From the IMG/VR virus record IMGVR_UViG_3300035633_000399, positions 1-50,196 of that record: a stretch of DNA of 50,196 nt. One strand, written 5' to 3'. The stretch is from a virus. The translations under genes and the position numbers were made by a program. The first letter of the stretch is position 1. Each line of letters begins with the position of its first letter. The notes under the pieces were generated by a model. The model saw only the letters and a program-made list of their open reading frames with translations. It searched no databases and was not told where the DNA came from. Positions 1-46,191 of the stretch are shown piece by piece.

Positions 1-1119
1 ACAATTGGTGTGCAACCTATGTCAGGTCCAGTAGGTTTGGCTTTTGCATTGCGCTATCGCTATGAAGGTCAAAGTTTGGATTGGCAAGATCCTACACGTC
101 GTACATATGATGCGACAAACTTTGGACAAAAATATCGTGGCGGTTCTCAAGCTGCTGCAGATGGTCAAGAACTTGGTTACAACCAATTGTACACAGATTA
201 TTCTGGTACATCTTCAGCATCTTTGTCTGGTTTGGGTGGACAAAGTTCTGATTTCTATATTCCACCAGAAGATCGTGGTGTAGCAGAATGGTTGGCTAAC
301 TATGAATTAACAGGCCAAATTCCACAAGTAACAATTGAGTTCGAGAAGACAGCTGTTGAAGCTGGTACTCGTAGATTGGCATCTCGTTGGAGCGTTGAGC
401 TTGAACAAGATTTGAAAAACATGCAAGGTATTGATATTGATAATGAAATGACAAATTCATTATCATATGAAATCCAAGCTGAAATTGACCGTGAAATGGT
501 TATCAGAATGCTTCAAGTTTCATTGAATGCTGGTTATGGTAGAGGTTGGTCAACATGGACACCTGTATCAGCAGATGGTCGTTGGTTGGGTGAAAGAAAT
601 CGTGATTTCTACCAACATGTATTGATTGAAGCAAATCGCATTGCTGTTCGCAATCGTCGTGGTTCTGCTAACTTCATTATCACTACTCCTACAGTTTGCA
701 CAATCTTCGAAGCTCTTCCTGAATTCCAATTCATGCCTATTAATTCTACTGTTGCTACACAGCAAACAGGCATTGCAAAAGTAGGTGTTCTTGCAGGGCG
801 TTATACAGTATACCGTGATACAAGAACAGAAGCACAGCAACCTTGGGTTCGCCCAGGCGTTCGCGATACACGCTTGGAATATTGCTTGCTTGGTTACAAA
901 GGAGCAGAATATTACGATACAGGTATCGTATATTGTCCATACATTCCTGTTATGGTTCAGCGTACAATTGGTCCTAATGATTTCTCACCTCGTGTTGGTT
1001 TGCTAACACGTTACGGTGTTGTAGATCATTTGTTTGGTGCTGATTTGTATTATCACGTAATCATCGTGAAGGATCTTGGACAAGGTTTCGTACCAGGTTC
1101 AGCACATAAATACTTGTAA
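1..1119 (+). CDS. 23: Major capsid protein, gp23-like (5' end outside window)
   Basis: This is the C-terminal 372 residues of a T4 gp23-type major capsid protein, which forms the hexamers of the head. The reading frame is open from base 1, so the true start lies upstream; the GTG at base 10 is not the start. The segment VQPMSGPVGLAFALRYRY closely matches the gp23 landmark 'QPMSGPTGQIFALRA'. Further matches are the 'RRLASRWSVELEQDLKNMQG' helix (gp23 'RQLKAAYSIELAQDLRAVHG'), the 'RRGSANFIITT' strand and the 'PRVGLLTRYGV' region near the end (gp23 'PVMGFKTRYGI'). The visible part fits a full length near 500 residues. Codon use is richer in GGT and CGT than in later genes, as expected for a very abundant protein. 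In T4 the genes upstream of 23 encode the portal, protease and scaffold; they would lie left of this window. Confidence 0.93.
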   Translation, partial: TIGVQPMSGPVGLAFALRYRYEGQSLDWQDPTRRTYDATNFGQKYRGGSQAAADGQELGYNQLYTDYSGTSSASLSGLGGQSSDFYIPPEDRGVAEWLANYELTGQIPQVTIEFEKTAVEAGTRRLASRWSVELEQDLKNMQGIDIDNEMTNSLSYEIQAEIDREMVIRMLQVSLNAGYGRGWSTWTPVSADGRWLGERNRDFYQHVLIEANRIAVRNRRGSANFIITTPTVCTIFEALPEFQFMPINSTVATQQTGIAKVGVLAGRYTVYRDTRTEAQQPWVRPGVRDTRLEYCLLGYKGAEYYDTGIVYCPYIPVMVQRTIGPNDFSPRVGLLTRYGVVDHLFGADLYYHVIIVKDLGQGFVPGSAHKYL

Positions 1120-29975: not shown

Positions 29976-30293
29976 ATGAGTAGATTCCATAATAAATGGC
30001 ATAGACACAATCATCACACAGATAATACGGGTCATACGAGTGAGCCAGATGCTATGCATGATCCTATAGCAAGTGAAAGCGATCCTTTTATTGGAGATTT
30101 TCATATTGAAGGTGATATAGTAGCAGATGGTGGATCCGGCGGACTTTTTACTAGCTTATCGGGAGCAGATTTATCAGCAACAACTATGACGTTTGAAGAT
30201 GCTGCGGTGACTTTTTCATCATTAGCATCTACTGGTGCGTTCTTATCTATTGTTGTAAACGGTAGTGCAGTATATGTTCCTTTATACCAGTAA
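29976..30293 (+). CDS. Small His-rich virion-type protein (105 aa)
   Basis: A 105-residue protein with a His-rich N-terminus (MSRFHNKWHRHNHHTDNTGH). The acidic middle (SESDPFIGDFHIEGDIVADG) is followed by a Ser/Ala/Thr-rich beta tail. The last part resembles the start of fibre-type modules ('DFHIEGDIV' and similar). It follows the giant tail genes and ends the baseplate block. The His cluster could bind a metal, as do His-rich motifs in some phage fibres and spikes, but no HxH repeat of the known spike type is present. The ribosome site is AGAGG. No other function can be assigned. Confidence 0.75.
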   Translation: MSRFHNKWHRHNHHTDNTGHTSEPDAMHDPIASESDPFIGDFHIEGDIVADGGSGGLFTSLSGADLSATTMTFEDAAVTFSSLASTGAFLSIVVNGSAVYVPLYQ

Positions 30294-30425: not shown

Positions 30426-31589
30426 ATGGCATTAAATCCAAATATAACAGCATTAATTTCTGCTGATTATCCACCTGCAGAAGCCGAACGTGGTAAATTT
30501 ACACGTTTGGATATGAGTTCTATTAGCAGCTACCCAACAGGCAGCGGGAGTCTAATAGCACGAGGACGCTACGCTCAATTTGTATATGTAGTTAATCCTC
30601 CAAACTTATCAGCACAAAACATTACAATTCCTGGTACTGTTACTATTGATGAAATCCAAGATCCGGTTACAATTGATACTGTTCAAACCACCGTAGATGT
30701 CGAAGTAACGAATGCAGCTGAATTAACAACAGTTAGAATTGATAATGTCAGTGATCTTACAACAGTTGATGCAAATGTAACGAATGTTTGGGAGTTTACC
30801 TCTGTAGATGCAAATATTACGAATGCTGATGTGTTAACATCTGTCTTCGTTACTAATGCAATTGATTTCACAACAGTTGATGCCACTATAACGAATGCTA
30901 ACGATCTTACTTCAGTTGATGCAAATGTAACTAATGCAGCTGACTTGACATCAGTATTTGTTACTAATGCGGATGACTTTACAACGGTAGATGCAAATGT
31001 AACAAATGCTAATGAGTTAACATCAGTATATGTTGAAAATGCTTCTGATTTTACAACAGTTGATGCAAATGTAACAAATGCTGCTGATTTAACATCTGTA
31101 TTTGTTACTAATGCGGCAGATTTTACTGATGTTAATGCAACAATTACTAATGCTGCAGAATTGACAAATGTTAATGTTACAAATGTTTGGGAATTTACTT
31201 CGGTAGATGCGAATGTAACAAATGCATGGGAATTGACAGATGTTAGGGTTACAAATCCAGAAGAATTTACAGATGTAACTATTACTAATGTAATAAGCAC
31301 TATACAAATACTTAACAATTCATTATGGATAGGAACAAGTAATTATAAAACCGAAGCAACAGTCTATAGCTTTGATCCAGTGATAAGACATCTTGAAGTT
31401 TTTAATGACTCAAATGACACAGCTTATCTCATGTTAAGTACTACAGATTTTGATAACTTAACTGCATTGGGATTTAAAATGATGCCATTTTCTTTTTATA
31501 ATATAGGACGTGAAGTTGCAGAATTAACAATAGGCACAGATAATGCTGCTGGATCACTTTTAAGAGTATTTGGCCATTATATAGGATAA
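30426..31589 (+). CDS. Repeat protein with ~17 alternating 11/13-residue repeats (387 aa)
   Basis: A 387-residue protein with a strong ribosome site (AAAGGAG). Residues about 87-290 consist of roughly 17 units that alternate between 11 and 13 residues, of the type 'LTSVFVTNAAD' and 'FTTVDANVTNAAD'. The regular V-x-V-T-N pattern suggests a beta-solenoid or extended beta fibre in which Asn and Val stack. The N-terminal 85 residues and the C-terminal 95 residues ('YSFDPVIRHLEVFNDSNDTA') are non-repetitive and may be attachment and cap domains. No signal peptide is present. A fibre or whisker role fits its position between tail and fibre genes. Repeat number probably varies between relatives. Confidence 0.82.
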   Translation: MALNPNITALISADYPPAEAERGKFTRLDMSSISSYPTGSGSLIARGRYAQFVYVVNPPNLSAQNITIPGTVTIDEIQDPVTIDTVQTTVDVEVTNAAELTTVRIDNVSDLTTVDANVTNVWEFTSVDANITNADVLTSVFVTNAIDFTTVDATITNANDLTSVDANVTNAADLTSVFVTNADDFTTVDANVTNANELTSVYVENASDFTTVDANVTNAADLTSVFVTNAADFTDVNATITNAAELTNVNVTNVWEFTSVDANVTNAWELTDVRVTNPEEFTDVTITNVISTIQILNNSLWIGTSNYKTEATVYSFDPVIRHLEVFNDSNDTAYLMLSTTDFDNLTALGFKMMPFSFYNIGREVAELTIGTDNAAGSLLRVFGHYIG

Positions 31590-31599
31590 GGAGCAATAA

Positions 31600-34410
31600 A
31601 TGAAAAAATTGTTTTTAACATTTTCAATTCTGTTAATGTTTTGTGTGACCATACTTGGTCAACACAGTCATTACACTTTGCCCCAATCTCCTTGGATTAT
31701 GAATATAGATGGCAATAATAAAACTCTTACTAATGCTACTGCTATTTATATTATAGATTGGCCTGTTGGATCAAATCAAGTTGTTCATAAAGCATATGTA
31801 GATTTGGCCGACAGTAATTTATATGATTCAATTGTAGGGGTTTTAGGAACAGGGTACGTAACACGGACAGGATCATTAGGCGCAAACATTCAAACAACTC
31901 CAGATGTATTAGGAACATTTGGTACTAACATTTTATTTTTTGTTAATACTAATAATGTATCTTTTGGTTATAATATATTAGAAGGAGGTAAGGCTGTTGC
32001 ATTAGGTTATAATATTAATGCATTAACAAACGGTGTAGGTATTGGTAAAGTAGTTACTGCTTATGACTTTGGTGTGGGTATTGGTATTGGTGCTCAAGGA
32101 CAAGTTAAAGGTGTTGGTATAGGTTACAATGCTACTGGCCAAGATAATGGTGTAGCAATTGGTAATGCGGCTGCTGGTAATAATCAAGGCGTAGGTATAG
32201 GTGAATTTGCAGACGGTACAGGGCAAGGATGTGTATCTATTGGTTGGGATGCAGTAATTGATAGTGGAGGTGGCAATTTTACTAATACTATTCAACTTGG
32301 TCCAGGTGACAATGTCAATGAAGGATCCGTTAAATGTTTTGATTGGGAATTAATACAGCCAAATGGCATTATACATCCAGATCGTTTGGCGGGATATGGT
32401 TTAGGTGATGTATATTTAGCAGCAGACAATGCTTTTACGGGATCCAATAGTTTTCCTAGTTTAACTTTAAATGGCGAATATATTACATCTTGGAATGATT
32501 TAACTAATTTTACTGGTGATAATCTTGGTGATCACACTGCTGAAATGAATTTGGATATGGCTGGTTATAATATAACTAATATTAGTTCTATCATATTTGA
32601 AGATGGAAGCATTATTACAACAGGCGCAAGTATTCACATTATCTCAGATGTAGAAATTCAAGGAAGTTTACTTGTAACAGAAACAATTGATGTTAAACAA
32701 ATTAATGTAACTAATTTGAATGTTGAAAATGTCGTATCTAATTTTTATATAAATGGCTGGATGGACATGCAATGGAATCCAATCTCTAATGCATTTATTT
32801 TTGGTGATGGTAGTGGTTTGACTAATTTAGATATAGCAGATGAACTTGCTAATTATACGCCATTAAATGATTTTACTAATTATCAAATTGCTGCTAGTAA
32901 TGACATTGCAGATCTTCAAACTGATGTTGCAGGAAAATTGGATAGTAATCATTGGGCCGATGCAGATTCTACGACAAATTATTTTCCAAGAACTGGAGGA
33001 AATATATCAGGACAAGTTATTATAGATAGTTCATTAATTGTAACAAATTCTATATTAACATATGGAGATATTGATATACAAGGAAATAACATTCTTGAAA
33101 TAAGACAGTTGAGAGCAGCTACTGCAGATGAAGACGGATTAAGAATCATTTTTACAAAAGGTAGTGAAGGTATTGGTTTTTATGAAAGCGGTATTATGGA
33201 GTTCACTACAAATAATGCTGGAGAAAACGAGATTCAAATATTGGCAGATTTAACAGATTTTCAAAGTACAACAGTTACAGGTGTTGGAAATTTATATGTA
33301 AGTGGTTCTGTGAACTTTGATGATGGAAGCAATCTAAGTGAAGACAGTGATGGTAATTTAGAGATAGACTCTGTTAGTGATTACACAGAGTTCAGTGGAG
33401 ATAGTTTAACGAATATTGCTTATATATATGTTAATGATGATGTAGTAATATCAGACACAAAATCACTAAACCAGTTGTATGATGCTTTTGTTGCTTCTTC
33501 TAACGAATTTTTGAAAACAGCCGCTTTAGAAGATCTTTCTAATAGTGTAATTCAAGCTGGGTTAGAGTTTACTAACTTTACCACTCATGTAACCAATACA
33601 TTTTATAAAAATACAGGTGGTGAATTATACGGTGATATCGAATTGCAAACAAACAACATAACGCAAGTAAGATCAATAACTTACATTCCTACTAATATGA
33701 CAGGTATTGGTTCAGAAGGAACTACTTGGTGGGATGAAACAGAACGCACATTATCGATACAAACTGAAGAGAGCAGTGTAGCATTACATGCAGGACAAGG
33801 AACTTGGGTTAGAGTTAGAAATGAGTCAGGATCAACAATTACTAAGGGTGAGGTTGTTTATGCTGCAGGGGTTACTTCAGGTACTACAAACCTTTTCTTA
33901 ATAGATGTTGCATCAGTAGATGACACAAATACATTTAGTATACTTGGACTTGTATCAGAAGAAATAGATGATGATAAAAACGGATATGTTACATCTTTAG
34001 GCTTTCTTAGAAACAGCGGCATAACATCAAGCTATAATGATGGTGATGTACTTTATTTAAGCACAGATGGCAGTCTTAGTGACAGTCCAGGAGATTATGA
34101 AGTAGAAATTTGTACAGTTATAAATGCTACAGATGGTATTGTTTATGTTAATCCAAAAGATGCTATAATACCACAACCAAGTGCAGGTATAGGTGGACTT
34201 GTTACTAATGGTGCTAATAATGAAATTGTATTTGGGGTATCAAATGCTAATGCAATTGTTGTTTTAACATTTGCAGAAGATGTTGGACAATTAATGATTC
34301 CAATGATTACAAATCAAACATCTACAAATGCACATTTTGTAGTTAGAGATTCATGGGGTGTAAATACAAATAGTTTGGAAATCAATTGGATATTGGGAAT
34401 TCAACAATGA
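31600..34410 (+). CDS. Tail-fibre-like adhesin with signal peptide and YadA-type head repeats (936 aa)
   Basis: A 936-residue protein beginning with a typical Sec signal sequence (MKKLFLTFSILLMFCVTILG, then Q). Residues about 118-230 are YadA/trimeric-autotransporter head repeats ('GVGIGYNATGQDNGVAIGNA'). A long segment with short beta repeats follows ('LNGEYITSWNDL', 'FGDGSGLTNLDIADELANYT'). Residues about 735-855 match a domain common in phage tail fibres ('WVRVRNESGSTITKGEVVYA', then 'GDVLYLSTDGSLSDSPGDYE'). A fibre domain together with a signal peptide is unusual. The strong AAGGAG site confirms the ATG just before the signal. The stop overlaps the next start (ATGA). It is the first gene of the fibre operon. 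Confidence 0.85.
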   Translation: MKKLFLTFSILLMFCVTILGQHSHYTLPQSPWIMNIDGNNKTLTNATAIYIIDWPVGSNQVVHKAYVDLADSNLYDSIVGVLGTGYVTRTGSLGANIQTTPDVLGTFGTNILFFVNTNNVSFGYNILEGGKAVALGYNINALTNGVGIGKVVTAYDFGVGIGIGAQGQVKGVGIGYNATGQDNGVAIGNAAAGNNQGVGIGEFADGTGQGCVSIGWDAVIDSGGGNFTNTIQLGPGDNVNEGSVKCFDWELIQPNGIIHPDRLAGYGLGDVYLAADNAFTGSNSFPSLTLNGEYITSWNDLTNFTGDNLGDHTAEMNLDMAGYNITNISSIIFEDGSIITTGASIHIISDVEIQGSLLVTETIDVKQINVTNLNVENVVSNFYINGWMDMQWNPISNAFIFGDGSGLTNLDIADELANYTPLNDFTNYQIAASNDIADLQTDVAGKLDSNHWADADSTTNYFPRTGGNISGQVIIDSSLIVTNSILTYGDIDIQGNNILEIRQLRAATADEDGLRIIFTKGSEGIGFYESGIMEFTTNNAGENEIQILADLTDFQSTTVTGVGNLYVSGSVNFDDGSNLSEDSDGNLEIDSVSDYTEFSGDSLTNIAYIYVNDDVVISDTKSLNQLYDAFVASSNEFLKTAALEDLSNSVIQAGLEFTNFTTHVTNTFYKNTGGELYGDIELQTNNITQVRSITYIPTNMTGIGSEGTTWWDETERTLSIQTEESSVALHAGQGTWVRVRNESGSTITKGEVVYAAGVTSGTTNLFLIDVASVDDTNTFSILGLVSEEIDDDKNGYVTSLGFLRNSGITSSYNDGDVLYLSTDGSLSDSPGDYEVEICTVINATDGIVYVNPKDAIIPQPSAGIGGLVTNGANNEIVFGVSNANAIVVLTFAEDVGQLMIPMITNQTSTNAHFVVRDSWGVNTNSLEINWILGIQQ

Positions 34411-37400
34411 TAAGAAAGTTTTTGTTTATAATATTAATTTCATTTATTGCTAGTAGTATTTTAGCAGAAATACCTATTTATCTTAGAAGAAATAGTACTT
34501 CCTGGAATGCTATTACTAATGGTACTTGGGATGGACGTGCATCTATAAGTAGTGTTGAAACAAGAGAAAATGACACTATGGTAGTATTAATAACATCAAT
34601 GCTTGAAAGAGATTTATTTTCTGGCGATATTGGTGTGGTTTATGATACTGACAAACATCTTGAATTATTGGACGAGATTGAATTAGGTCAAACTAATGGA
34701 TACGCTGCAGTATTTTACAGACAAATATATAATAATTATACCGGATCAGCTAGTTTAAGAGTAACTAACGCCACACATACATTTGGCGGTATTATGACAC
34801 TTTTTATTCTATCTGATATTGACAATAACAAATCAATAATACCAATTCAAACCAACACAAATGCCTCTGATAGAATAACATTAACAGGAACTGCTCCTGA
34901 ATCTTTTGTATTAGCAGGCGCAGCTTTTCTAGAAGAAATAACTAATTCGTTCACTCAAACTGATTTCCAAATTCAAACTATAGTAGTTCCAACAAATGAA
35001 GCAGCAATAAACACCACAACTAATCAAAATGCGGTTTGTTATAATAATGATAATTCTGGTGGTGATATAACTATTGGTTGGGAAGATGGTGGTGTTGATG
35101 ATAAAAAATGCATTATCGGCGCTGAATTTGCAATAGTAGAAAAGGTTTTATATTTTGATCCAAATGGCACAAACAATCCTGGATTTTTTGATTCAGATAT
35201 GAATATATGGATAACCACTAATTTAGCATGGAATTTAGATCCCAGTGGTGGCGGTGCAGCAGGACCGTTATTGCCATGGACTAATGGATTGAATGATGTT
35301 GCTGTTATAAGCAATGATTATGGATCTAGTGTTGGAATAGTTGTAGTAGATGATTTTATATTTAATAATGGATTGGAATTTAGAGGTAATGATGAAAATA
35401 TCAGTTTTGTTGATAACAATACAAATAAAATAACAATCAAAGGTTTGTTATATCTTGATGATGCCGAAGTTACGTTTGAAAACATAATTACAGGTAATGT
35501 AGAAGTTACTATGAGTTCTAGTCCCGGTCTATATCTAAATCTTGAACCAATAACAGGTACATGGCAATTTAACAATGGAGATGTTTTTATAAATGGAAGT
35601 TTACAAGATTTTATTCATTTAATTCTTGAAGGTGGTGTAAATTTTCAATTAGATAGTAATAGCAATATCATATCATCTCTTTCAGGTACTTCTTCAAGCG
35701 CAGAAATTGATTGCAATGTCATAGACGATACATATAGTTTAATAGTTAATCAAGAAAAAGATACCACATATGAGGGTATTATTGATGACAATCCTAGTTC
35801 TTTTATACCAATTATAAAACACGGAAAGGGTTCATTAACATTAAATGGTCAAATTACTGCAAGTAGTGATGCACCAGCAAATGAAGTACACCAAGGCATG
35901 TTAGTAATGAATAGTGACATTAATAGTGTTAATGTAGAGGTGGATGTATTTGGCGGAACATTAGCAGGGGCAGGACGTGTAGACAATATTACCGTATATA
36001 AAGGTGGAACATTAAATCCAGGTAATCCAGATGAAGTTTATGCTGAGGATTTTCTTCAGTTTGATTTCACTGATTTTAATGCTACCAATGGAGTGCCATT
36101 AACAAATACTTCCGTATTAGCAAATGGTGTTGATTTAGTACAAGGCTTAGATTTAGCATCTGATTGGATTGGAACTCTTACTAGAGTAGATGAAGATGAT
36201 GTTTTTACGTGGTATGGAAATTTTAGTGCAGTAGAAACAACTAAACTGTATCAAGCAATTAATAATAATTATTATATGAATTTTGTTATTAAGCCGGAAT
36301 ATGATCATATATTAGATCTTAGTGGATCTCAATTAAAAATGACGTATAATAAAAATTTTCACGCACCAAGACATTATTCATTATTTACAAGTGTTGATGG
36401 GTTTAAAACGCCATTTAAAGCAGTTGATAATATTTTAACTTCGAGAAATAAAGTTACAAACTCCCCTACAATAGAATTTAATCTTACAGATAGTAGATTT
36501 AGTTCTATTATTGAACCAATAGAATTTCGCATTTATTTTTATGGTTGCCTATATAATAACCACCCTTTTACTGTTACTGATATGTCATTACTTGATGGGC
36601 GTGTTCATCCTCCAACAGAAATACCAGGAATATTTGATATTCAAAATAATTGTACAATTAAAGGTACATATAAATGTGATTTTTGTGGTGTATCAAACAT
36701 AGCTGATAAATTAATTGTTGGTGATGATTTAACACTAGAAAGCGATTCTCGTTTTGTGGGAATACAAAAATATTGTCAAGTAAATAAAGTACCTAATGGA
36801 ACTTTTACAAATGATTTTCGGAGAAATTCTGGTACTACACAATCAGATGATATAGATAACGGTTGGACAGAACCTGGATCTGCTAGATGGTCATGGAATT
36901 CTTTAGATAATACAGGCGCAGTATTAGGGGATGATGGCGCAATTATTATGTGTAATTGGTTTACTGATAACTACGCTATTAAAGGCAATGCAATTTTAAA
37001 GTTTAGAGCAAGAAATATAAATGGATCATATTTACCAAATACACTTAGAGCAGAAGTACAAGGAGTGCGCCATGCTCCATCGGGACCAGGATTTTCTAAT
37101 TGGAATTGGTCACAATATAATGACAGTTGGACAAATTACCTCCCTCTTCCAGTTCCAGAATTGTTAATAAATAAAACATTTACATTCACTGAAGATTTTG
37201 AGTGGAAAGTATTTAACATAAGCATTGGAAATGTGGGAAATGGTTATCCATACTACTTAATACGTATTGGTGTAGTAGTAGGCACTGATGTAAGACCAAC
37301 GCAAGGTGATGAACTTGAAATAGATGATGTTGAATTATTAAGTTCAAACAATAAAGATTATACACTTCAAGAGGTTGCTGTTGCAGCATCTAATACAGTT

Positions 37401-39377
37401 AATGGAACATTTTTCTTGCCTACATATTTCTTAACATATTCATTGACTAATATTTTAGCCCAATATGATGATAAAGGCGGATTAGGGCCTGATTTTAGGA
37501 CTGTTGGCGAAAGTTTAATATTTAGTAATAGAAATTTAAATGTTGCGCATATAGAAACATTATCAGGAACACATTGGCAATATCAATTACCTAATGTTGT
37601 TGGAGAAACAAATGTTACTAGAGGTGGATTTACAACAAATGAATGGTATCCAACTTTATCGGTGGTGGTCCAAGATATAAATGAAAGTGTAGAGTGGGAT
37701 AAAATATCTGGTAATGCGTCATTTGATGAAACAAACAAATTTACAATAATTGTAACAAATGAAAATTCATATTCAGAAATGGTATATAGTAATTTATTTG
37801 AAGGACCAACAAATGCGTTTGAAGGAGAATACAGCTATATTAATAGATATAGATATGAATGGATAGACAGAAGTACAAATACAATAACAGTAGTATCTAA
37901 TTTAGCAGTTGTTAACTTTTATTTATATGAATGGGGTGGTGATCCTATTTTAATTTCATCAGGTGCTGTGGATAATTTAACATCTATAGGCTCACCTGTA
38001 TTGGGTAGTATTTCAGGTACATTCAGCGTAACAAATGATTTTTATTATGGTGTGCGTTATTATCATGGTCAGCACGATGTAGAAGCTGCTGCTGGTGGTG
38101 GAGGAGGATCTACTACTACAGGTGTAAGTTTTGTTGATGGCAGCGAAGGCGGTGCAACATTTACGTCTCCTAATAAGTTTATATTTACTATTAGTGATTT
38201 TGTCGGTCAAGATTATGATAATATGATTTGGAGCAATCAATTACCAGCAGGTACATATTATTACACAAACATATATTCGTACAGCCATTTTGGAGGTGAC
38301 GATGGTTTTGGTGTGCCTGATATTGACTCTGTATCTGGAGATGATTATATTGTATATGAGTGGGATATAAGTTATGCAAATGCATCAAACGTAGGCTCAT
38401 CAGCAAGTGAAAGTTTAACAAATGGCGTAACAAAAATACTTACAAATTCAGGATCATTTCTTGCAACAAATAGTTTTTATTTCGGTACGCGTTTTGCGTC
38501 TGGTACTGTTGATAGTGGCAATGCTAATTCTATTGTAACTAATTTATATGTAACACTAACGTCTGGAAGCACTGGAGGAGGTACACAAGAAATAGCAACT
38601 ATTGAAGCACAAGCAAGAACAATTGATTTTGATGCTGAAAATTATGCATTTTTTGGTGAGTTTTTAGATAACGGCAGTGTGAAGTTAGGAGAAAATTTGC
38701 AAGAGGGAGCTATTATTTATACAAATAGAGTAGATGTAACAAAACCATTTGTAATTCAATATTTTGTTAGTATTGAAGAGTCTGGTGGCGCATATGGAGT
38801 TGGTTTTCAAAATAGTGCAACTGCAAATGCAGATAGTGGTGGCGACCCGTCGGATGCCAATTCTATTTTTGTAAGAAATAGAGATGCTGCAAATGAAATC
38901 ATTATTTATGAAGGTTCTAGTCAAGCGACTAGTTTTGATGTAGATGGTGGTTATCTTCGTAATGGCTTGTTTTATATAACACATGCTTTTGATGGTGAAA
39001 GACAATTTAGAGGATCATGGCATAAATATAATGATACAAACGAAATAATAATTAAACATGTGTTTGATGAACCTCTTGAAGATATTATTGGAACAAACAC
39101 AGCACATATATATGTATCAGGCAATAATAATGATGGTATTTATTATTATGGATTAAATGTCTCTACAGGTAAATATTTAATAACAGAGGATTTGGATGTT
39201 GAAAATATGTTTGGTCGATTCCACTTTAATACAATTGAAAATAACATCTATTTAGGCGAGCGTGCAGGCGAGAGCACAACAAGTACAACTAACAGCACTA
39301 TTGTTGGAAAACGTGCAGGCTTTAATGGTGATAATAGCCAAAGTGTAATATTTGGTGCAGGAGCAGGAGAACAATAA
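34407..39377 (+). CDS. Very large secreted/fibre adhesin with autotransporter-type repeats (1656 aa)
   Basis: A 1656-residue protein. I start it at ATG 34407, which overlaps the previous stop and gives a clean signal peptide (MIRKFLFIILISFIASSILA, then E); an upstream TTG would add seven residues before it. Residues about 470-540 match autotransporter-associated (PATR-type) repeats: 'HGKGSLTLNGQITASSD', 'GGTLAGAGRVDNITVYKGGT', 'LNPG'. Two related beta domains lie near 1090-1230 and 1240-1370. Residues about 1400-1590 look like a lectin-type jelly roll. The last 45 residues are YadA-like ('NIYLGERAGES', 'IVGKRAGFNGDNSQS', 'VIFGAGAGEQ'). No C-terminal autotransporter barrel is seen. It probably acts in receptor binding or surface display; the function is inferred. 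Confidence 0.82.
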   Translation: MIRKFLFIILISFIASSILAEIPIYLRRNSTSWNAITNGTWDGRASISSVETRENDTMVVLITSMLERDLFSGDIGVVYDTDKHLELLDEIELGQTNGYAAVFYRQIYNNYTGSASLRVTNATHTFGGIMTLFILSDIDNNKSIIPIQTNTNASDRITLTGTAPESFVLAGAAFLEEITNSFTQTDFQIQTIVVPTNEAAINTTTNQNAVCYNNDNSGGDITIGWEDGGVDDKKCIIGAEFAIVEKVLYFDPNGTNNPGFFDSDMNIWITTNLAWNLDPSGGGAAGPLLPWTNGLNDVAVISNDYGSSVGIVVVDDFIFNNGLEFRGNDENISFVDNNTNKITIKGLLYLDDAEVTFENIITGNVEVTMSSSPGLYLNLEPITGTWQFNNGDVFINGSLQDFIHLILEGGVNFQLDSNSNIISSLSGTSSSAEIDCNVIDDTYSLIVNQEKDTTYEGIIDDNPSSFIPIIKHGKGSLTLNGQITASSDAPANEVHQGMLVMNSDINSVNVEVDVFGGTLAGAGRVDNITVYKGGTLNPGNPDEVYAEDFLQFDFTDFNATNGVPLTNTSVLANGVDLVQGLDLASDWIGTLTRVDEDDVFTWYGNFSAVETTKLYQAINNNYYMNFVIKPEYDHILDLSGSQLKMTYNKNFHAPRHYSLFTSVDGFKTPFKAVDNILTSRNKVTNSPTIEFNLTDSRFSSIIEPIEFRIYFYGCLYNNHPFTVTDMSLLDGRVHPPTEIPGIFDIQNNCTIKGTYKCDFCGVSNIADKLIVGDDLTLESDSRFVGIQKYCQVNKVPNGTFTNDFRRNSGTTQSDDIDNGWTEPGSARWSWNSLDNTGAVLGDDGAIIMCNWFTDNYAIKGNAILKFRARNINGSYLPNTLRAEVQGVRHAPSGPGFSNWNWSQYNDSWTNYLPLPVPELLINKTFTFTEDFEWKVFNISIGNVGNGYPYYLIRIGVVVGTDVRPTQGDELEIDDVELLSSNNKDYTLQEVAVAASNTVNGTFFLPTYFLTYSLTNILAQYDDKGGLGPDFRTVGESLIFSNRNLNVAHIETLSGTHWQYQLPNVVGETNVTRGGFTTNEWYPTLSVVVQDINESVEWDKISGNASFDETNKFTIIVTNENSYSEMVYSNLFEGPTNAFEGEYSYINRYRYEWIDRSTNTITVVSNLAVVNFYLYEWGGDPILISSGAVDNLTSIGSPVLGSISGTFSVTNDFYYGVRYYHGQHDVEAAAGGGGGSTTTGVSFVDGSEGGATFTSPNKFIFTISDFVGQDYDNMIWSNQLPAGTYYYTNIYSYSHFGGDDGFGVPDIDSVSGDDYIVYEWDISYANASNVGSSASESLTNGVTKILTNSGSFLATNSFYFGTRFASGTVDSGNANSIVTNLYVTLTSGSTGGGTQEIATIEAQARTIDFDAENYAFFGEFLDNGSVKLGENLQEGAIIYTNRVDVTKPFVIQYFVSIEESGGAYGVGFQNSATANADSGGDPSDANSIFVRNRDAANEIIIYEGSSQATSFDVDGGYLRNGLFYITHAFDGERQFRGSWHKYNDTNEIIIKHVFDEPLEDIIGTNTAHIYVSGNNNDGIYYYGLNVSTGKYLITEDLDVENMFGRFHFNTIENNIYLGERAGESTTSTTNSTIVGKRAGFNGDNSQSVIFGAGAGEQ

Positions 39378-40915
39378 TGAAAAGAATTTTAATATTTTTA
39401 TTGATCATCTCAAGTGTATTTGCTTTTGGTGAAGGCGGGTTAAATACACGAATTAAAAACACAGATAATACATTCGTTTTTATAACAAATAAATTAAGTG
39501 TTGTTGGTGGGGTTGAAACAAGATCAATTGATATTACAGATGTTGAAGTATATGACAGTTTAACCTTTACTGATAATAGAACATTTGTATTAGAAGATGG
39601 CTCTACTATTATTGGTCAATATGCAGGAATAATTACACCTGGAACTAATGTTACTATAATGGGTTATCGCGCTGGTATGACGAATGCCGTAGATTATTTA
39701 GTTGCATATGGTCATGCTGCAGCAAGAGGTAATATTGGACCATTTGTGACAGCTATAGGTTATGAATCAGCAGCAGATAATCAAGGCGAAAATGTAATAA
39801 CGATAGGCTATCAAGCAGGAAGAATAAACACAGGAGATGATTCGGTTTTTATTGGGAAGAGTGCAGGTGAAGAAAACGATGGCGGTGGTGTTGTAGGTAT
39901 TGGTGTGAATGCAATAAAAAGTAATACAGAAGATGATGTAATTGCTATTGGTAATTATGCGCTTGAAAATAATACAGGAATAGAAAGCATTGGTATAGGG
40001 CGTGCTGCATTACAAGAAAACACAGGTGATGGTGCAATAGCAATTGGTTATCAAGCTGGACAAAATAATAATTCTGATTTTGTTTGTTTTATGGGTAATG
40101 AAGCAGCAGAGAATTTAACAGATTCTGAATATGCAGTTGTAATTGGATATCAAGCTGGACAAAATGGCAATACATTTTCTAATAGTGTTATAATTGGATC
40201 ACATGCTGGTCAGAATGCTACTAATTTAATAGATTGTGTTACTATGGGATATAATGCATTAAAAGATGCTCAAGATGTTTCTCATGTAAATGCAATTGGG
40301 TATTTAGCAGGACAAGATATTAAAAACATTGATAATATAACATTATTTTCAGGTGGTAGTAATGCCCATTATTTTATTGCTGGTTCCATTAATAATGAGG
40401 TAGGATCTGGCTATTACGGCATAATGACCACAAATGCTGGTTCGGTTACAAATTCTGAATATTTATATTTTGCTGATTTAAATGGTGATGGTAGAGAAGA
40501 ACGTTATTTTGGCAAGTATAATGAAAAGCCGGATGCATCAAGAATTTATAGCAATGGAATTGCTCTACTTAATATGAAAGGTAATTTTGTTGTTGAAGAT
40601 ACAGGAACTACTACTTTACATTTCAGAGTAGAATATTCATTGGATCGAACATTTGCGACAACAAATTACTCGGTTGAATCTGATTCAGATCAAAGCGCGT
40701 TTAAGTATATTGACTTAGACACTTATACCTATTCTAATTTTCCAAGTACAGGATTGCCTTTAAAAGATCAAAACGCTGCAGAGAGTTTCGTGGTTTGCAC
40801 ATGGTCAGAAGCAATTATAGGTTATAAGTATTATGTAAGAGCGGCAGTTGAAACAAATTCACCAAGTTGGACAAGTCCCGAATGGAAATTTAATCGTGTA
40901 ATGGTAGCTGAATAA
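39377..40915 (+). CDS. YadA-like adhesin/fibre protein with signal peptide (512 aa)
   Basis: A 512-residue protein starting with a signal sequence (MKRILIFLLIISSVFA, then F). Residues about 70-310 are a long run of YadA-type head repeats, the units centred on 'AIGYQAGQNNN', 'VVIGYQAGQNGNTFSNS' and 'VIIGSHAGQN'. This motif forms a trimeric left-handed beta-roll in YadA and also occurs in phage fibres. The C-terminal 125 residues ('NFVVEDTGTTTLHFRVEYSL' ... 'SPSWTSPEWKFNRV') form a domain repeated in the next protein. There is no membrane-anchor barrel. The ATG shares one base with the previous stop (TAATG), and the next gene does the same, so the three are translationally coupled. Confidence 0.85.
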   Translation: MKRILIFLLIISSVFAFGEGGLNTRIKNTDNTFVFITNKLSVVGGVETRSIDITDVEVYDSLTFTDNRTFVLEDGSTIIGQYAGIITPGTNVTIMGYRAGMTNAVDYLVAYGHAAARGNIGPFVTAIGYESAADNQGENVITIGYQAGRINTGDDSVFIGKSAGEENDGGGVVGIGVNAIKSNTEDDVIAIGNYALENNTGIESIGIGRAALQENTGDGAIAIGYQAGQNNNSDFVCFMGNEAAENLTDSEYAVVIGYQAGQNGNTFSNSVIIGSHAGQNATNLIDCVTMGYNALKDAQDVSHVNAIGYLAGQDIKNIDNITLFSGGSNAHYFIAGSINNEVGSGYYGIMTTNAGSVTNSEYLYFADLNGDGREERYFGKYNEKPDASRIYSNGIALLNMKGNFVVEDTGTTTLHFRVEYSLDRTFATTNYSVESDSDQSAFKYIDLDTYTYSNFPSTGLPLKDQNAAESFVVCTWSEAIIGYKYYVRAAVETNSPSWTSPEWKFNRVMVAE

Positions 40916-43290
40916 TGAGAAATATTTTAATAATAATCTTAATTTTAATTACATCAGGTCTTTATGGTGCTGATGATATCATTTTTGGTTATGAAGCAGG
41001 TAAAGGTACGCCAAGTGATAATTACAACATCACAATTGGGTATCAATCTGGCACTGATAGTGCTTATGATGAAAACAATATCAACATTGGTAATAATTTA
41101 AATGATTCATTGATTGATCTTACAAATGGAATTGCAATTGGATATAATAATATAAGAGAACCACAAGAATTTGACAATCCTATTAGTATTGGTTACAGTA
41201 ATCAGTTTAATATAACATCTTACAGAACTATTACTATAGGTAATAGATGGTTTAATTATGGACAAATAAATAAATATGCTAATTCTGAACCAGAAAGAAA
41301 TCGTATTACTAATCAAAATTTTGCTTGTAGTAATGCAATAGCAATTGGATTTGATAATAGATTAAATTTTAACAATCGTGCTTATGTTCGTATGGCCGGA
41401 AATAAAAATGGAATTTATTTTGGTCATGAATCTGGAATGAATGAAATGGTAGATCATTACCCAATGAATAATGCAATTGGTGCAGGTATATTTTCAGATT
41501 TTACAGATCAAAATGAAAACCCCCCACAAGCAAAACCTAATTATTTTACATTTATGATAGGCGGCGAAGCTGCTAAATATCAAGTAAATGGACCAACTAA
41601 TTTATGTTATGCTATTGGTTTAGGAAGAGGTGCTTTTTATAGATCTAGATTGAACACAGATTATAGTAGTCCAAATAGAGAATGCAGTCAAATTGGAATT
41701 GGTTCGTGGTCAGGATTTAGAGGAGCATTTAAAACATCAGTTACATTAACAGGTGATAAATTTTCTGATTATTTTGTAGCAGGGTTAAATACTAATCATA
41801 GTTATATTGGACACGGACATAAAAAATATTATGATTTTAATGCGTATAGAGATGATGATGGTAGTAGTTATACAAAAACATTTTCTTTTACAGAATATTT
41901 AACCAATCAAGTAAATGATGTTCATTATTTTATAGATAATGATCCAAACACAAATTATTTTTGGCCTCCTGGATTTACAAATAATTATTGGACATCATTT
42001 ACATCAGGGTATACAGATGCAGAAGATCCAAGTTATCAAAATACAAATATTAATGGGGAACTAATATTCTTTTATTATGGTAATGGTAGCAGTAATGGGT
42101 GGTATGTATATCAAGGATATCCAACCAATTTAATTGCATATCACCCTTTAAACAATAAAAGGTCATTAGATTCGAAACTTGATGATGAATGGGAAAGTTT
42201 TGATTTAGTATATACAAATCTTAGTCGTGTTGATTTTATAAGACCAGTTAGAGGTTGGATTCCTTTTAAAACAAATGAATTCATTCATCCTACATCTCCT
42301 GTTAAATTTTATGGTGGGTTATATTTATCTAATTATGAAGGAAGAGTTACAAGTGGAAATATAAATTTAATTCCAGCAGATGAAAATTATCCAAGAGGTG
42401 TAGCTTATTTAGCGTATAGCGGTGCTGGTTCACAAAACGCAGACTTTCAGGAATGGTGGATAATTCATTATATAACAACTAATGAATTTTTAAATCAACC
42501 AGATGCATTTAATAGATTTACTAAATTTGTTTTAAGAGGGGATTTAGGAGGCGGGGCTGTTGATAAAAGATGGCATTTGATTCGTGATTCTGGTCAATAT
42601 TGGGTTTCAGAAGAAAAAGTTATATCCGACTTTAGTGAAATAACAGATTTTAATAATAATCCAGACGAACAATGGGCGCCTTTTACAATTACTACAAATA
42701 ATTGGAGAGTTTACACATCAGCATTAACATACCAAACTAAATCTTTTACTAATATTCAAGGTATTGGTTTTATATCACAAAAAACAGAAGGTAATGCTTT
42801 AAATTTTGATATTTCTGACATTATATATGAAGATTCACCGCAATATTATGGAAATAGAGGAACAAGTGGAAGAATTAATCAGTTAGAAGAGGATGAGTTT
42901 TTAATCAGTCCACAAAATAATTTTGTAGAAGATGATATTATTATAACGCATTTAGATGGAAACTTTATTGTTGATGGTACCACAAACGTTCATTTTTGGG
43001 TACAGACAAGCACTGATGAGCAATTTAGTGTTACCAATGGATCTATTAGATCGAATATAGAAACACAGAATTTTGAGTATATAGATTTAACAGATTATTC
43101 ATTTGCAGATTTTACAACAAATGGTTTATCTGTAGATGATCAAGATGCAGAAGTTGGATTAGTTATTTGTACATGGGATAGAGGGTTGCGTGAAACTAAA
43201 TATTTTATAAGAGCAGCAATGGAAACAAACAATCCACCAACTTGGTCAAACCCTATATGGAAGTTTAATGAAGTGGAGATGACAAAATGA
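40915..43290 (+). CDS. YadA-like adhesin/fibre protein with signal peptide, paralogue (791 aa)
   Basis: A 791-residue protein. It has a signal sequence (MRNILIIILILITSGLYG, then A), short YadA-like head repeats ('IIFGYEAGKGTPSDN', 'NITIGYQSGTDS', 'NINIGNNLNDS', 'GIAIGYNN'), a long unique central part with many Tyr, Asn and Phe residues, and a C-terminal domain of about 120 residues. That domain is clearly paralogous to that of the preceding 512-residue protein: 'NFIVDGTTNVHFWVQTSTDE', then 'LVICTWDRGLRETKYFIRAA', and 'WSNPIWKFNEV'. The two genes therefore probably arose by duplication with replacement of the middle. A receptor-binding role is inferred. It begins with TAATG coupling. Confidence 0.83.
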   Translation: MRNILIIILILITSGLYGADDIIFGYEAGKGTPSDNYNITIGYQSGTDSAYDENNINIGNNLNDSLIDLTNGIAIGYNNIREPQEFDNPISIGYSNQFNITSYRTITIGNRWFNYGQINKYANSEPERNRITNQNFACSNAIAIGFDNRLNFNNRAYVRMAGNKNGIYFGHESGMNEMVDHYPMNNAIGAGIFSDFTDQNENPPQAKPNYFTFMIGGEAAKYQVNGPTNLCYAIGLGRGAFYRSRLNTDYSSPNRECSQIGIGSWSGFRGAFKTSVTLTGDKFSDYFVAGLNTNHSYIGHGHKKYYDFNAYRDDDGSSYTKTFSFTEYLTNQVNDVHYFIDNDPNTNYFWPPGFTNNYWTSFTSGYTDAEDPSYQNTNINGELIFFYYGNGSSNGWYVYQGYPTNLIAYHPLNNKRSLDSKLDDEWESFDLVYTNLSRVDFIRPVRGWIPFKTNEFIHPTSPVKFYGGLYLSNYEGRVTSGNINLIPADENYPRGVAYLAYSGAGSQNADFQEWWIIHYITTNEFLNQPDAFNRFTKFVLRGDLGGGAVDKRWHLIRDSGQYWVSEEKVISDFSEITDFNNNPDEQWAPFTITTNNWRVYTSALTYQTKSFTNIQGIGFISQKTEGNALNFDISDIIYEDSPQYYGNRGTSGRINQLEEDEFLISPQNNFVEDDIIITHLDGNFIVDGTTNVHFWVQTSTDEQFSVTNGSIRSNIETQNFEYIDLTDYSFADFTTNGLSVDDQDAEVGLVICTWDRGLRETKYFIRAAMETNNPPTWSNPIWKFNEVEMTK

Positions 43291-43296
43291 TATAGT

Positions 43297-43353
43297 ATGT
43301 CTGTTGCGGAGATACAGGCACTTATAGACGCTATTAAATCGGAAAGCAAATGA
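43297..43353 (+). CDS. Possible 18-aa small ORF coupled to the next gene
   Basis: ATG at 43297 encodes MSVAEIQALIDAIKSESK and its stop overlaps the next gene's start (ATGA), the same coupling used elsewhere in this operon. The sequence is an amphipathic helix and could be a relic of a longer tail-type protein or a coupling peptide. No good ribosome site lies at normal distance (GGAG is about 20 nt upstream). Confidence 0.4.
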   Translation: MSVAEIQALIDAIKSESK

Positions 43354-44024
43354 AAACATATAGATTTGATAAGTTAATAAAAGAAGCGATTGATGGTTTA
43401 GATTCTTTCGGGTCTAAATTTGATAAGTTAATAAAAGAAGCGATTGATGGTTTAGATTTACCTAGTAATTTTGAATGTTCTTTCGGGTCTTGTATGCTTG
43501 CAGCAAAAATTTTGGTTAGAAAACTTCTTAGATTGGGCAGAAATGATTTTAAGGTTATTGAAGGATATATAACATTTCCAAATGTGGAATGGAATGAACA
43601 GCATACTTGGATTGAGATGGATGATGGTGAAATTATTGATCCAACTAAAATGCAATGGGGAATTAAAAAAGAAATTGTTTATTTATCATTGCGAAGAAAA
43701 GAATATACACCTTATGAGTACCTTGAGCTTGCTGCAAAGTATCCAGATGAAGATAATCCAAAAAAATATTTGGGAAATTACCAGTATATAGGTAAGTGTG
43801 GTTCAACAGTTGATGATTCATGTATTTGGGATGCAACAGAGATGGCACAGTTAATAGATGATTCTAGTCCATTAGATATAGAGGGAATTTATCCATTTAT
43901 TTCTAATAAATTAAAACAAAAGGTGGATGACAATTATTTTAACTTTAAATGCAGGATTAATGGTAATATTGCATTTGTTTATGATATAAATAATAATATT
44001 TATTATTTTTATAAGAAATCATGA
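43350..44024 (+). CDS. Transglutaminase-like cysteine enzyme candidate (224 aa)
   Basis: A 224-residue protein without a signal peptide inside the fibre operon. It shows a possible Cys-His-Asp triad in the order and context of the transglutaminase-like fold: 'ECSFGSCMLAAKILVRKLLR' (Cys48 at the start of a helix, with Cys43 nearby), NEQHTWIEMDDGEIIDPT (His85 and Asp97 on adjacent strands). Such proteins act as proteases, peptide cross-linkers or acyl transferases; which applies is unknown. The N-terminus contains a recent 18-residue tandem duplication ('FDKLIKEAIDGLD' twice), encoded by a perfect 40-bp DNA repeat. Its start overlaps the preceding small ORF, which suggests coupled translation. 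It might modify fibre proteins or the cell surface. Confidence 0.65.
   Translation: MKTYRFDKLIKEAIDGLDSFGSKFDKLIKEAIDGLDLPSNFECSFGSCMLAAKILVRKLLRLGRNDFKVIEGYITFPNVEWNEQHTWIEMDDGEIIDPTKMQWGIKKEIVYLSLRRKEYTPYEYLELAAKYPDEDNPKKYLGNYQYIGKCGSTVDDSCIWDATEMAQLIDDSSPLDIEGIYPFISNKLKQKVDDNYFNFKCRINGNIAFVYDINNNIYYFYKKS
43365..43458 (+). repeat. Perfect 40-bp tandem repeat, 54-bp period, in-frame
   Basis: A 40-base sequence beginning TTTGATAAGTTAATAAAAGA occurs at 43365-43404 and again at 43419-43458 without a mismatch. A 13-base piece, TTCTTTCGGGTCT, also occurs twice (43403-43415 and 43478-43490). This suggests a recent slippage or duplication that added 18 codons. Confidence 0.9.
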
Positions 44025-44036
44025 TAAGGAATAAAA

Positions 44037-45035
44037 ATGAATACTAAAAATAAACTATTCACACTCTACTGGATATATGTAATAATTTTATTTACATTTA
44101 TATTCGGAACGAATCTTGGACATGGACAGGCTAAGAAATTTTTTATACAAAATAATGGTGATGTTTATGTTACTAATTCTATTATATTAAATAATGGTAT
44201 ACTTACATACAATAATGGAAACTTATTAGTAGATGGAGGCACAATAGAAGGAGGTACTGGTATATGGAATCATGTTGCTACCACTAACATTGATATGGCA
44301 GATAATGATATTACTAATGCTGGTAATATTTATTGTGATGATATATTTGCTGCTTCTAATTCCATTTATCTCGGCGAAGGCAAATTATCATATGAAGGTG
44401 GAACTTTAAAAGTTGATGATAGTCCAGTTGGAGGTGGAGATGGTGGTGTTACTTCTACATGGGAAACAGTTTGGATATCTTCTGGCGCAATGTATCCTGG
44501 GTATTATAATCCTCCACAAGCGGTAAAAGCCACATTTGCAGGTAGAGATCCTACATATGATTTTTGGGCTTTTGATTGGCAGTATACAAATGAAAATGCT
44601 ATATTTACGCATGTATTTCCTGATGGCTGGAATAAAGAAGAACCGCTTAATGTCAAATTGTATTGGACGCCATCAGTATTTACAGGGGATAGTGAAGGAG
44701 CACCCAATGACAGGTATATTGGATTTTGGGTTAGTGCTGTATCGTTTATTGATGGGGGTGATGCAGATGATAGTAATATTGTTACTCCGGGTACAGGTGA
44801 TGTATTTGTTATTGATAGCACCTTTGACAACGGAGCAGAAGGAATGTATATTTCTACATCAATAGTTGTAGGAGTACATAATCAACATACAAATACACCA
44901 GGAAACATGGTTTATTTTCAACTGACACGCGATCATGATTTTGATGGCGGCGGCACTAAGATGAGTGCAGATTGTGGTGTTCATGGGTTATTAATTAGAT
45001 ATAAGAAAAATATGGTAGTAACAGATGATTGGTAA
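44037..45035 (+). CDS. Secreted/fibre protein with signal peptide (332 aa)
   Basis: A 332-residue protein with an N-terminal signal-like segment ('KLFTLYWIYVIILFTFIFG', residues 6-24; a plausible cleavage follows GHGQA). Residues about 35-130 have short beta repeats of a fibre type ('NNGDVYVTNSIILNNGILTY', 'DMADNDITNAGNIY', 'GEGKLSYEGGTLKVDD'). Then comes a Gly-rich hinge (GGGDGGV) and a C-terminal domain that looks like a jelly roll ('KVDDSP', 'EPLNVKLYWTPSVF', 'GMYISTSIVVGVHN', 'GLLIRYKKN'). That layout suits a shaft plus receptor-binding head. It has an AAGGA site and overlaps the next gene by 11 bases. Confidence 0.8.
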   Translation: MNTKNKLFTLYWIYVIILFTFIFGTNLGHGQAKKFFIQNNGDVYVTNSIILNNGILTYNNGNLLVDGGTIEGGTGIWNHVATTNIDMADNDITNAGNIYCDDIFAASNSIYLGEGKLSYEGGTLKVDDSPVGGGDGGVTSTWETVWISSGAMYPGYYNPPQAVKATFAGRDPTYDFWAFDWQYTNENAIFTHVFPDGWNKEEPLNVKLYWTPSVFTGDSEGAPNDRYIGFWVSAVSFIDGGDADDSNIVTPGTGDVFVIDSTFDNGAEGMYISTSIVVGVHNQHTNTPGNMVYFQLTRDHDFDGGGTKMSADCGVHGLLIRYKKNMVVTDDW

Positions 45036-46191
45036 AAATTATTGGTTTATATTGTTTTTAATTCCTACGTTAGTGTTTGGACAACATCATCGACGTAAGT
45101 GGGCATGGGATAAAACAGCTGGTATTGGAAATTCTGGCACAGGCTATGTATTCTTTGTTTGCAGTGATGGTAACCGGGCATTACGTTGCTGGGAATGGCT
45201 ACATGCTACGCGTGAATTTGGTGAAAGAGTATATATTGATTATCCTAGAGATGGAAAAATAGGTAATTGGACAACAAGTGCCGGTAGAGGGGTTTCTATT
45301 TCACCAGTTAATAACAACGAGGTATTGTTGGCATTTGCTGGCAATGAAAGATTTTATATTCATAATTATGATGAGAATATGGATAATGTTATATATGGTA
45401 GAGATTATTATCTTGCAGGCAATGATAGTGTTCCAAGTGCGCATACTTGGGCGAAAAACGGCGAAGCCATTGCTTGCGGGACTGGAAATTCACCTCATTT
45501 ACATATATGGAAAGTGCATCCAAATGTAGGATTTGGACCAAGAGTTAATTTTACAAATGTTATAGTAAGTGATATAGATGCAGTTGCTTGGTCGCCTAGT
45601 AATGACTGGATAGCCATAACAGATTTAGGACAAAGTATTAAGCCTGTTGTTTTTGCATGGGAACCTGAAACAGCAAATGGTTTGGGTGTTAGGCATGCTC
45701 CTACTGAGGGAAGCACAGCATCTCGTGTCAGATCTTTGGATTGGTCTGATAATCAGAATTATCTTTTTGTAGGAGCAGACAACAGGCTAGAAGCATATGA
45801 ATGGACAAATGGATTTGGGGCATATACTTATTTATCACATTCACTTATTCATGATGTTGAATATTTTAAACAAGGTACTAATGAATATGTTGCAGTAGTT
45901 GGGATAAATCAAACTACACCCCCTGGAAATGGAAGATTGTCTGTATATCAATGGACAAATGGTTTTGGTACGCGTTACACTACTAATACATATGCTTCTA
46001 TTAGTGGCAGTCAAGGTATAGATGTAGCAGTTGTGTCTAATCGTTTTATTTTTATGTCAATAATTTATCCTGATAGAGTAATGGCGTTTGAGTTTACGAA
46101 TAATACCTTTTATTTCTTATCTGCTATTACAAACAATGAGTGGGATACAATTAGCAATATTGCTATTAGTTTCGATGATAAACAAAAATAA
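45025..46191 (+). CDS. Beta-propeller protein with signal peptide (388 aa)
   Basis: A 388-residue protein with signal sequence 'NYWFILFLIPTLVFG' (residues 5-19), then Q. The rest consists of WD40-like blades with repeated 'W(S)PSNDWIAI' and 'xYEWTNGFG' units: 'DIDAVAWSPSNDWIAITDLG', 'RVRSLDWSDNQNYLFVGADN', 'LEAYEWTNGFGAYTYLSHSL', 'LSVYQWTNGFGTRYTTNTYA'. Length fits a single seven-bladed propeller. It ends the fibre operon and overlaps the previous gene by 11 bases. Secreted propellers often bind proteins or sugars. The propellers in the tail block lack signal peptides, so this one differs in targeting. Confidence 0.8.
   Translation: MIGKNYWFILFLIPTLVFGQHHRRKWAWDKTAGIGNSGTGYVFFVCSDGNRALRCWEWLHATREFGERVYIDYPRDGKIGNWTTSAGRGVSISPVNNNEVLLAFAGNERFYIHNYDENMDNVIYGRDYYLAGNDSVPSAHTWAKNGEAIACGTGNSPHLHIWKVHPNVGFGPRVNFTNVIVSDIDAVAWSPSNDWIAITDLGQSIKPVVFAWEPETANGLGVRHAPTEGSTASRVRSLDWSDNQNYLFVGADNRLEAYEWTNGFGAYTYLSHSLIHDVEYFKQGTNEYVAVVGINQTTPPGNGRLSVYQWTNGFGTRYTTNTYASISGSQGIDVAVVSNRFIFMSIIYPDRVMAFEFTNNTFYFLSAITNNEWDTISNIAISFDDKQK

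Follow-up and report, generated by a model that had tools for sequence, protein, structure and literature searches.

The window analysed here, i.e. the whole stretch of 50,196 bases, corresponds to IMG/VR virus record IMGVR_UViG_3300035633_000399 and is a fragment of a T4-superfamily phage. Behind its baseplate and giant genes lies a block of tail-fibre-type genes (31600-46191), in which six of seven genes open with a textbook Sec signal peptide (SP). SPs were called with a purpose-written rule-based scorer, which looks for a basic n-region, a hydrophobic h-region and a small-x-small c-region near residue 15-32. Calibrated on a 45-kb stretch of E. coli K-12, it flagged 10/10 exported proteins, 1/1 lipoprotein, 1/6 inner-membrane and 1/21 cytosolic proteins, and shuffled N-termini were flagged at 1.1%. 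Among the 33 open reading frames (ORFs) of the window it flags precisely those beginning at 31600, 34407, 39377, 40915, 44037 and 45025, which makes six of the 25 ORFs of at least 150 amino acids (aa), all inside the block and none elsewhere. By our own arithmetic, six random flags would land on 6/7 block ORFs of this size with p ~ 4e-5. An earlier note on this DNA had proposed SPs on these six genes and none on the baseplate and giant genes to the left; both proposals were borne out, the former by the rule-based scorer in the place of a SignalP-type check, the latter by the absence of any flag. Its description of a six-gene block holds for the SP-bearing genes, although a seventh gene (43350-44024), without SP, lies among them.

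All six leaders combine an n-region net charge of +1 to +2 with a hydrophobic core of 11 residues (mean Kyte-Doolittle value 2.8-3.35) and a small-x-small exit, which is the n-, h- and c-region pattern of a Sec/signal peptidase I (SPI) substrate. Gln occupies the predicted +1 position in three of the six, and in 5/13 leaders of the clade described below, compared with 3% Gln overall. The six ORFs are supported by plausible ribosome sites or start-stop overlaps. Export of the six proteins by working leaders is considered probable.

Table 1. Genes of the fibre block, its upstream neighbours and the major head gene (positions in the window; SP coordinates and cleavage sites, marked ^, are predicted).
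Feature	Position	Strand	Length (aa)	SP	Cleavage	Remark
gp23	1-1119					PHROG major head protein, 6.6e-66
Anchor gene	29976..30293	+	105	none		'RFHNKxHRxxHHT..DPIAS' tail-fibre family
Structural-type protein	30426..31589	+	387	none		Directly upstream of the SP block
SP-bearing fibre 1	31600..34410	+	936	31600-31659	VTILG^QHSHY	
SP-bearing giant fibre/adhesin 2	34407..39377	+	1656	34407-34466	SSILA^EIPIY	
SP-bearing fibre 3	39377..40915	+	512	39377-39424	SSVFA^FGEGG	YadA-head-like repeats
SP-bearing fibre 4	40915..43290	+	791	40915-40968	SGLYG^ADDII or ITSG^LYGAD	
Gene inside block	43350..44024	+	224	none		18-aa N-terminus duplicated
SP-bearing fibre 5	44037..45035	+	332	44037-44126	LGHG^QAKKF or GQA^KK	
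SP-bearing propeller-like protein 6	45025..46191	+	388	45025-45081	LVFG^QHHRR	

Virion-domain homology and position in the tail cluster identify 39377 and 40915 as fibre genes. Their products match PHROG tail or virion families, the former (P0003) a tail-spike family at 2.3e-9, and have a 120-aa C-terminal domain in common. The assignment of 31600 comes from a tail-protein domain: residues 675-824 of its product (P0001) match a Nitrincola phage tail protein (9e-8), and residues 703-823 also match G027_45512, a fibre without SP. Products of 34407, 44037 and 45025 are assigned by position and repeats only, and the C-terminal residues of the first have the same repeat type as gene 39377. The domains named in the earlier note thus stand in part, with the tail-spike match of 39377 and the phage tail-protein domain of 31600, while the YadA-head model reaches just E=0.22 on 39377, the propeller of 45025 is a sub-threshold WD40 match, and autotransporter-type repeats in 34407 were detected neither by Pfam nor by NCBIfam. 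In single-sequence AlphaFold models, the SP helix is the sole confident part of the 44037 product (pLDDT 34), and the 45025 product reaches pLDDT 40.

Relatives were found neither in IMG/VR single-protein scans with 39377, 31600 and 45025 nor in annotated phages, searched by tblastn with 34407, 44037 and 45025. No annotated phage relative of the window fibres has an SP, and where annotated phages have homologues of the 39377 repeats, these are likewise without a leader. Two Tenacibaculum jumbo phages with related repeats show no SP on fibres within the stretches read.

The SP-less genes differ in character. The Cys/His/Asp pattern of the 43350 product recalls transglutaminase-like enzymes, as judged by eye only; at the start of this gene, a 44-nt tandem duplication, 98% identical, was observed (43361-43458). 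Of the anchor fibre encoded at 29976, only the two conserved ends, N- and C-terminal, remain; compared with L133, some 360 residues of the middle are gone. Elsewhere the window encodes dUTPase-like, sliding-clamp loader and gp25 and gp6 baseplate proteins, followed by the giant genes and the fibre block. The closest relatives of the window are found among uncultured phages of the T4 superfamily, with up to 79% identity in gp23; annotated phages reach only ~ 33% there. Matches to the T4-type late promoter TATAAATA show no enrichment, with 15 in the window vs 17.2 expected.

To compare the same locus in other phages, the His-rich anchor fibre lying ahead of the block was used to collect 80 loci, and the giant gene to collect two more. 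Among 369 ORFs of at least 300 aa in these 82 loci the scorer flags two, both representing one G001 gene seen twice. SP-bearing fibre genes occupy this locus in four of five viruses, i.e. in the window, G001, G020/L133 and G026, and are absent in G027, which has the same operon. G001 (57% gp6 identity) carries a 604-aa SP fibre directly behind the anchor gene. G020/L133 has SP proteins of 507, 287 and 1479 aa, in addition to an equivocal one of 103 aa. The 507-aa protein is LamG-like (...TVFA^QNYK) and was recognised by eye after the scorer had missed it; the sensitivity of the scorer is incomplete, as L133 17264, with Asn in its core, was missed. In the 287-aa protein of L133, an SP (...TLG^QIQT) is joined to Pfam Collar and Gp10_C, clearly a tail domain of phage type. 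Two SP fibres, 373 and 1259 aa long, lie on the 248-kb contig G026. In trees built from gp6 and from the 22338 gene, the window groups with G001, G026, G020 and G027 in a single clade, supported at 100/98 or better; G020, which lacks gp6, is placed by the 22338-gene tree only. Fibres with predicted signal peptides are thus a trait of a clade of related phages. The more distant relatives G003, G005, G008, G010, G012 and G017 have no SP on baseplate or fibre genes, and no contigs beyond those already known came up when IMG/VR was scanned with the conserved SP fibre.

Within the clade, the SP-less genes 29976 and 30426 have orthologues throughout, those of 30426 flanking the SP fibres in L133/L297 and L298. 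Hardly any of the SP-bearing bodies are related from one phage to the next, while the SP persists. Because orthologues of both SP-less genes stand in the same operons, the cell would sort two fibre classes from one operon. The exception among the bodies is a pair, L297 10967 (1479 aa) and L298 6772 (1259 aa): both have a leader, and their two aligned segments show 47-61% identity. These leaders are 45% identical, compared with ~ 40-68% for the rest, and both preserve the basic-hydrophobic-small architecture, with a core that stays uncharged save for one Lys. Conversely, a collar fibre has an SP in L133 and none in L298 12613 (39% identity), and the domain common to window 31600 and G027_45512 is found both with and without SP. 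Recurrence of SPs in four phages, retention at 47% identity and swaps of bodies argue against vestigial signals. As read from these comparisons, the SP is a selected, portable module and not an accident of sequence; its attachment to and detachment from the same bodies shows that its presence would toggle the destination of a fibre.

Several other features were observed at these loci. Membrane proteins without relation to one another are encoded between the giant baseplate gene and the anchor fibre (L133:13384-13962; L088:7743-8747; L300:4582-4938), of VTT/DedA-like, DUF401/CitMHS-like and small transmembrane types. Shortly downstream of the G001 SP fibre, a subtilase gene with an intein and a LAGLIDADG endonuclease is found on the minus strand (L088:543-3926). 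In the fibre operon of the 248-kb relative, a caspase-like Peptidase_C14 gene (L298:11800-12588) adjoins a lipoprotein gene, of which L297 has a counterpart too. Two more distant relatives contain separate exported-protein modules, L117:3051-10510 (G018 203051-210510) and L097:13188-19582 (G007 178188-184582), with PEP-CTERM proteins, a PATR/PEP-CTERM repeat protein and a GspG-like pseudopilin, and in G018 also an SP-bearing alpha-amylase. PEP-CTERM sorting signals look unusual on phage genes.

A Sec/SPI substrate in a diderm cell reaches the periplasm by default and is released at lysis. None of the six predicted cleavage sites in the window has the Cys of a lipobox, as in Llp/Cor-like lipoproteins (signal peptidase II substrates), although separate lipoprotein genes lie downstream in L297 and L298. 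Pfam and NCBIfam gave no autotransporter or YadA anchor or barrel family (type V secretion) on the six proteins, and no C-terminal sorting domain of the type IX secretion system (T9SS) or PEP-CTERM; the latter was found, though, on proteins of G007 and G018. Since neither an outer-membrane anchor nor a surface-sorting signal was found, periplasmic location followed by release at lysis is preferred over anchored display and is the most likely predicted destination. Of the options raised in the earlier note, display on the host surface becomes less likely in its anchored form, and the comparative data do not separate display from decoy.

Clues to the host are contradictory. In G001, the closest long relative, a gene for the lipid A deacylase LpxR is present (E=1.5e-71; L087:9625-10587). 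Its product, a further one targeted to the envelope and in this respect in favour of fibre export, would alter lipopolysaccharide (LPS) and implies an LPS-bearing diderm host. Compared with centre genomes, whose phyla were read from record titles, this LpxR reaches 175 bits at best in Verrucomicrobiota (49/241 genomes) and 71 bits in Bacteroidota (21/247). In Bacteroidetes, the Q-rule places Gln at +1 in ~ 71% of SPI substrates on average (PMC5837995). Gln at +1 in 5/13 predicted leaders may recall this rule, but LpxR is closer in kinship to Verrucomicrobiota.

The explanation that we favour is that this T4-superfamily phage makes six tail-fibre-type adhesins with working Sec/SPI leaders. They would cross the inner membrane unfolded, be trimmed and fold in the periplasm, bypassing the cytoplasmic assembly of the virion. 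Mature fibres would build up there until lysis frees them as soluble, multivalent receptor-binding proteins, able to occupy the phage's own receptors on the envelope of the infected cell, on debris and on neighbouring cells. Such masking would curb superinfection and keep progeny from being wasted on dead fragments. By analogy, and because of the precedents of T5 Llp/pb5 and PblB, masking of receptors and debris is the most likely role of the free fibres; the entire chain, from export through periplasmic folding and lysis to an effect like superinfection exclusion, is put forward tentatively.

In T5, the exported lipoprotein Llp blocks the receptor, so that adsorption to cell fragments is avoided, and the receptor-binding protein pb5 blocks infection when purified and added to cells (PMC9586334). 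As with Llp and Cor-type exclusion lipoproteins, a phage product would be routed through Sec to the envelope and deny the receptor to later or sister phages; unlike the small, lipobox-bearing Llp, the window proteins are fibre bodies of 332-1656 aa with SPI-type leaders. PblB is a tail adhesin of phage origin, for which an SP is predicted in pneumococcus; in S. mitis it is freed during the lytic cycle and binds viable bacteria (PMC4508584). Predicted adhesins outside the cell liken the window to streptococcal prophage PblA/PblB, which, however, are one or two proteins of a Gram-positive temperate phage, in contrast to a locus-conserved block of the T4 superfamily with a probable diderm host. 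In Porphyromonas gingivalis phages, genes for Q-rule signal-peptide proteins are adapted to the Sec/SPI machinery of the host, Gln being at +1 in some of them (PMC10367356); their function is unknown, whereas here the leaders belong to fibre genes in a structural operon and Gln is at +1 in only half of them. T4-superfamily tail fibres gp34-37 and gp12 resemble the block in their position behind baseplate genes, repeat-rich bodies and, in a relative, the Collar domain, but canonical gp34-37 and gp12 have no SP, and in the 82 loci none was flagged outside G001 in ORFs of at least 300 aa. Individual exported phage adhesins and exclusion proteins are already known; in the literature searched, no case was found of a T4-superfamily structural operon with several genes for exported fibre-type proteins that are conserved as a set across a clade.

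Some considerations weigh against this explanation. The masking role is drawn by analogy, and export and processing are read from sequence; six distinct bodies per phage exceed what one receptor needs; fibre trimers of 300-1650 aa would have to fold in the periplasm; and glycosylation as a reason for export finds no enrichment of D(S/T)x motifs (20 vs a shuffle mean of 30.8 ± 5.3). Disulfide formation as the driving force was also set aside, Cys being rarer in the fibres than in baseplate proteins.

The main rival of receptor masking is that exported fibres are virion parts added after lysis, virions leaving the cytoplasm with short anchors such as the 105-aa product of 29976 and acquiring fibres matured in the periplasm once outside. 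The loss of the whole middle of this anchor fibre would fit a virion without a conventional fibre body, as would a Collar/Gp10_C domain on a protein predicted to be exported and the membership of these genes in the structural operon. On the other hand, the six mature N-termini have no common attachment domain, clear homology being limited to the C-terminal ends of 39377 and 40915, attachment would be inefficient after dilution, and G020 and G026 also retain long SP-less anchor fibres; we consider this unlikely. A related idea, that of a two-compartment tail programme, has SP-less anchors built in the cytoplasm and swappable full-size fibres exported, matured in the periplasm and then either added to virions or used for masking; this is possible but doubtful. 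Less probable than post-lysis attachment is that the products act as surface or matrix adhesins that make infected cells adhere to surfaces or to one another, to the benefit of the phage (through aggregation or biofilm), a role suggested for proteins of the PblA/PblB type. Adhesin-like repeats, the PblB precedent and the exported modules of G007 and G018 (PEP-CTERM, PATR, pseudopilin-like and secreted amylase genes) speak for it. Against it, the six proteins show neither an anchor to the cell surface or a type V barrel nor a signal of the T9SS or PEP-CTERM type.

Capture of host adhesins, whose leaders would now be irrelevant or uncleaved on ordinary virion fibres, was another option of the earlier note. 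Exported proteins with a collar domain and a Sec leader do occur in bacteria, among them Psychroserpens, Algicola, Flavobacteriaceae, Omnitrophota and others. These Flavobacteriia and Omnitrophota proteins share the arrangement of a Sec leader followed by a Collar-type domain, but are chromosomal, lie outside a virion cluster and have sequence similarity confined to the collar domain. Type IV pilin-like instead of Sec leaders were observed on collar-domain proteins in L221, L222, L224, L228 and L235 (Omnitrophota, Saccharibacteria and Bacilli genomes). Since cellular counterparts exist, capture from, or exchange with, hosts is possible for some fibre bodies. As an explanation of the leaders, capture with unprocessed signals is disfavoured by their recurrence in the clade, by the pair at 47% identity and by the leader swaps, as a useless leader would not persist; moreover, no homologue of the conserved SP fibre turned up among 296 genomes sampled from the phylum of Psychroserpens L233 and 289 from that of Verrucomicrobiaceae L295. 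We regard it as improbable. The hydrophobic N-terminus might also be a structural helix for trimerisation or membrane contact of the virion tip, as some phage tip proteins have hydrophobic N-termini. This is very improbable given that all six have a basic n-region, a core with 9-11 uncharged residues and a small-x-small exit, given the excess of Gln at +1, which looks like a real cleavage-site preference, and given the conventional Collar fibre of the same family that works without a hydrophobic N-terminus.

Tail fibres are assumed to assemble in the cytoplasm. The leaders of this clade suggest that these viruses deliberately export fibre proteins normally kept inside until the particle is built. 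If a clade systematically exports its fibres, host-range proteins would have further roles outside the virion, whether as decoys, as blockers of receptors or as parts added late. This would change the reading of fibre genes in metagenomes and offer natural secreted receptor-binding proteins, and a two-compartment programme, if true, would make the fibre system dependent on export, something for which no description was found in the literature searched.

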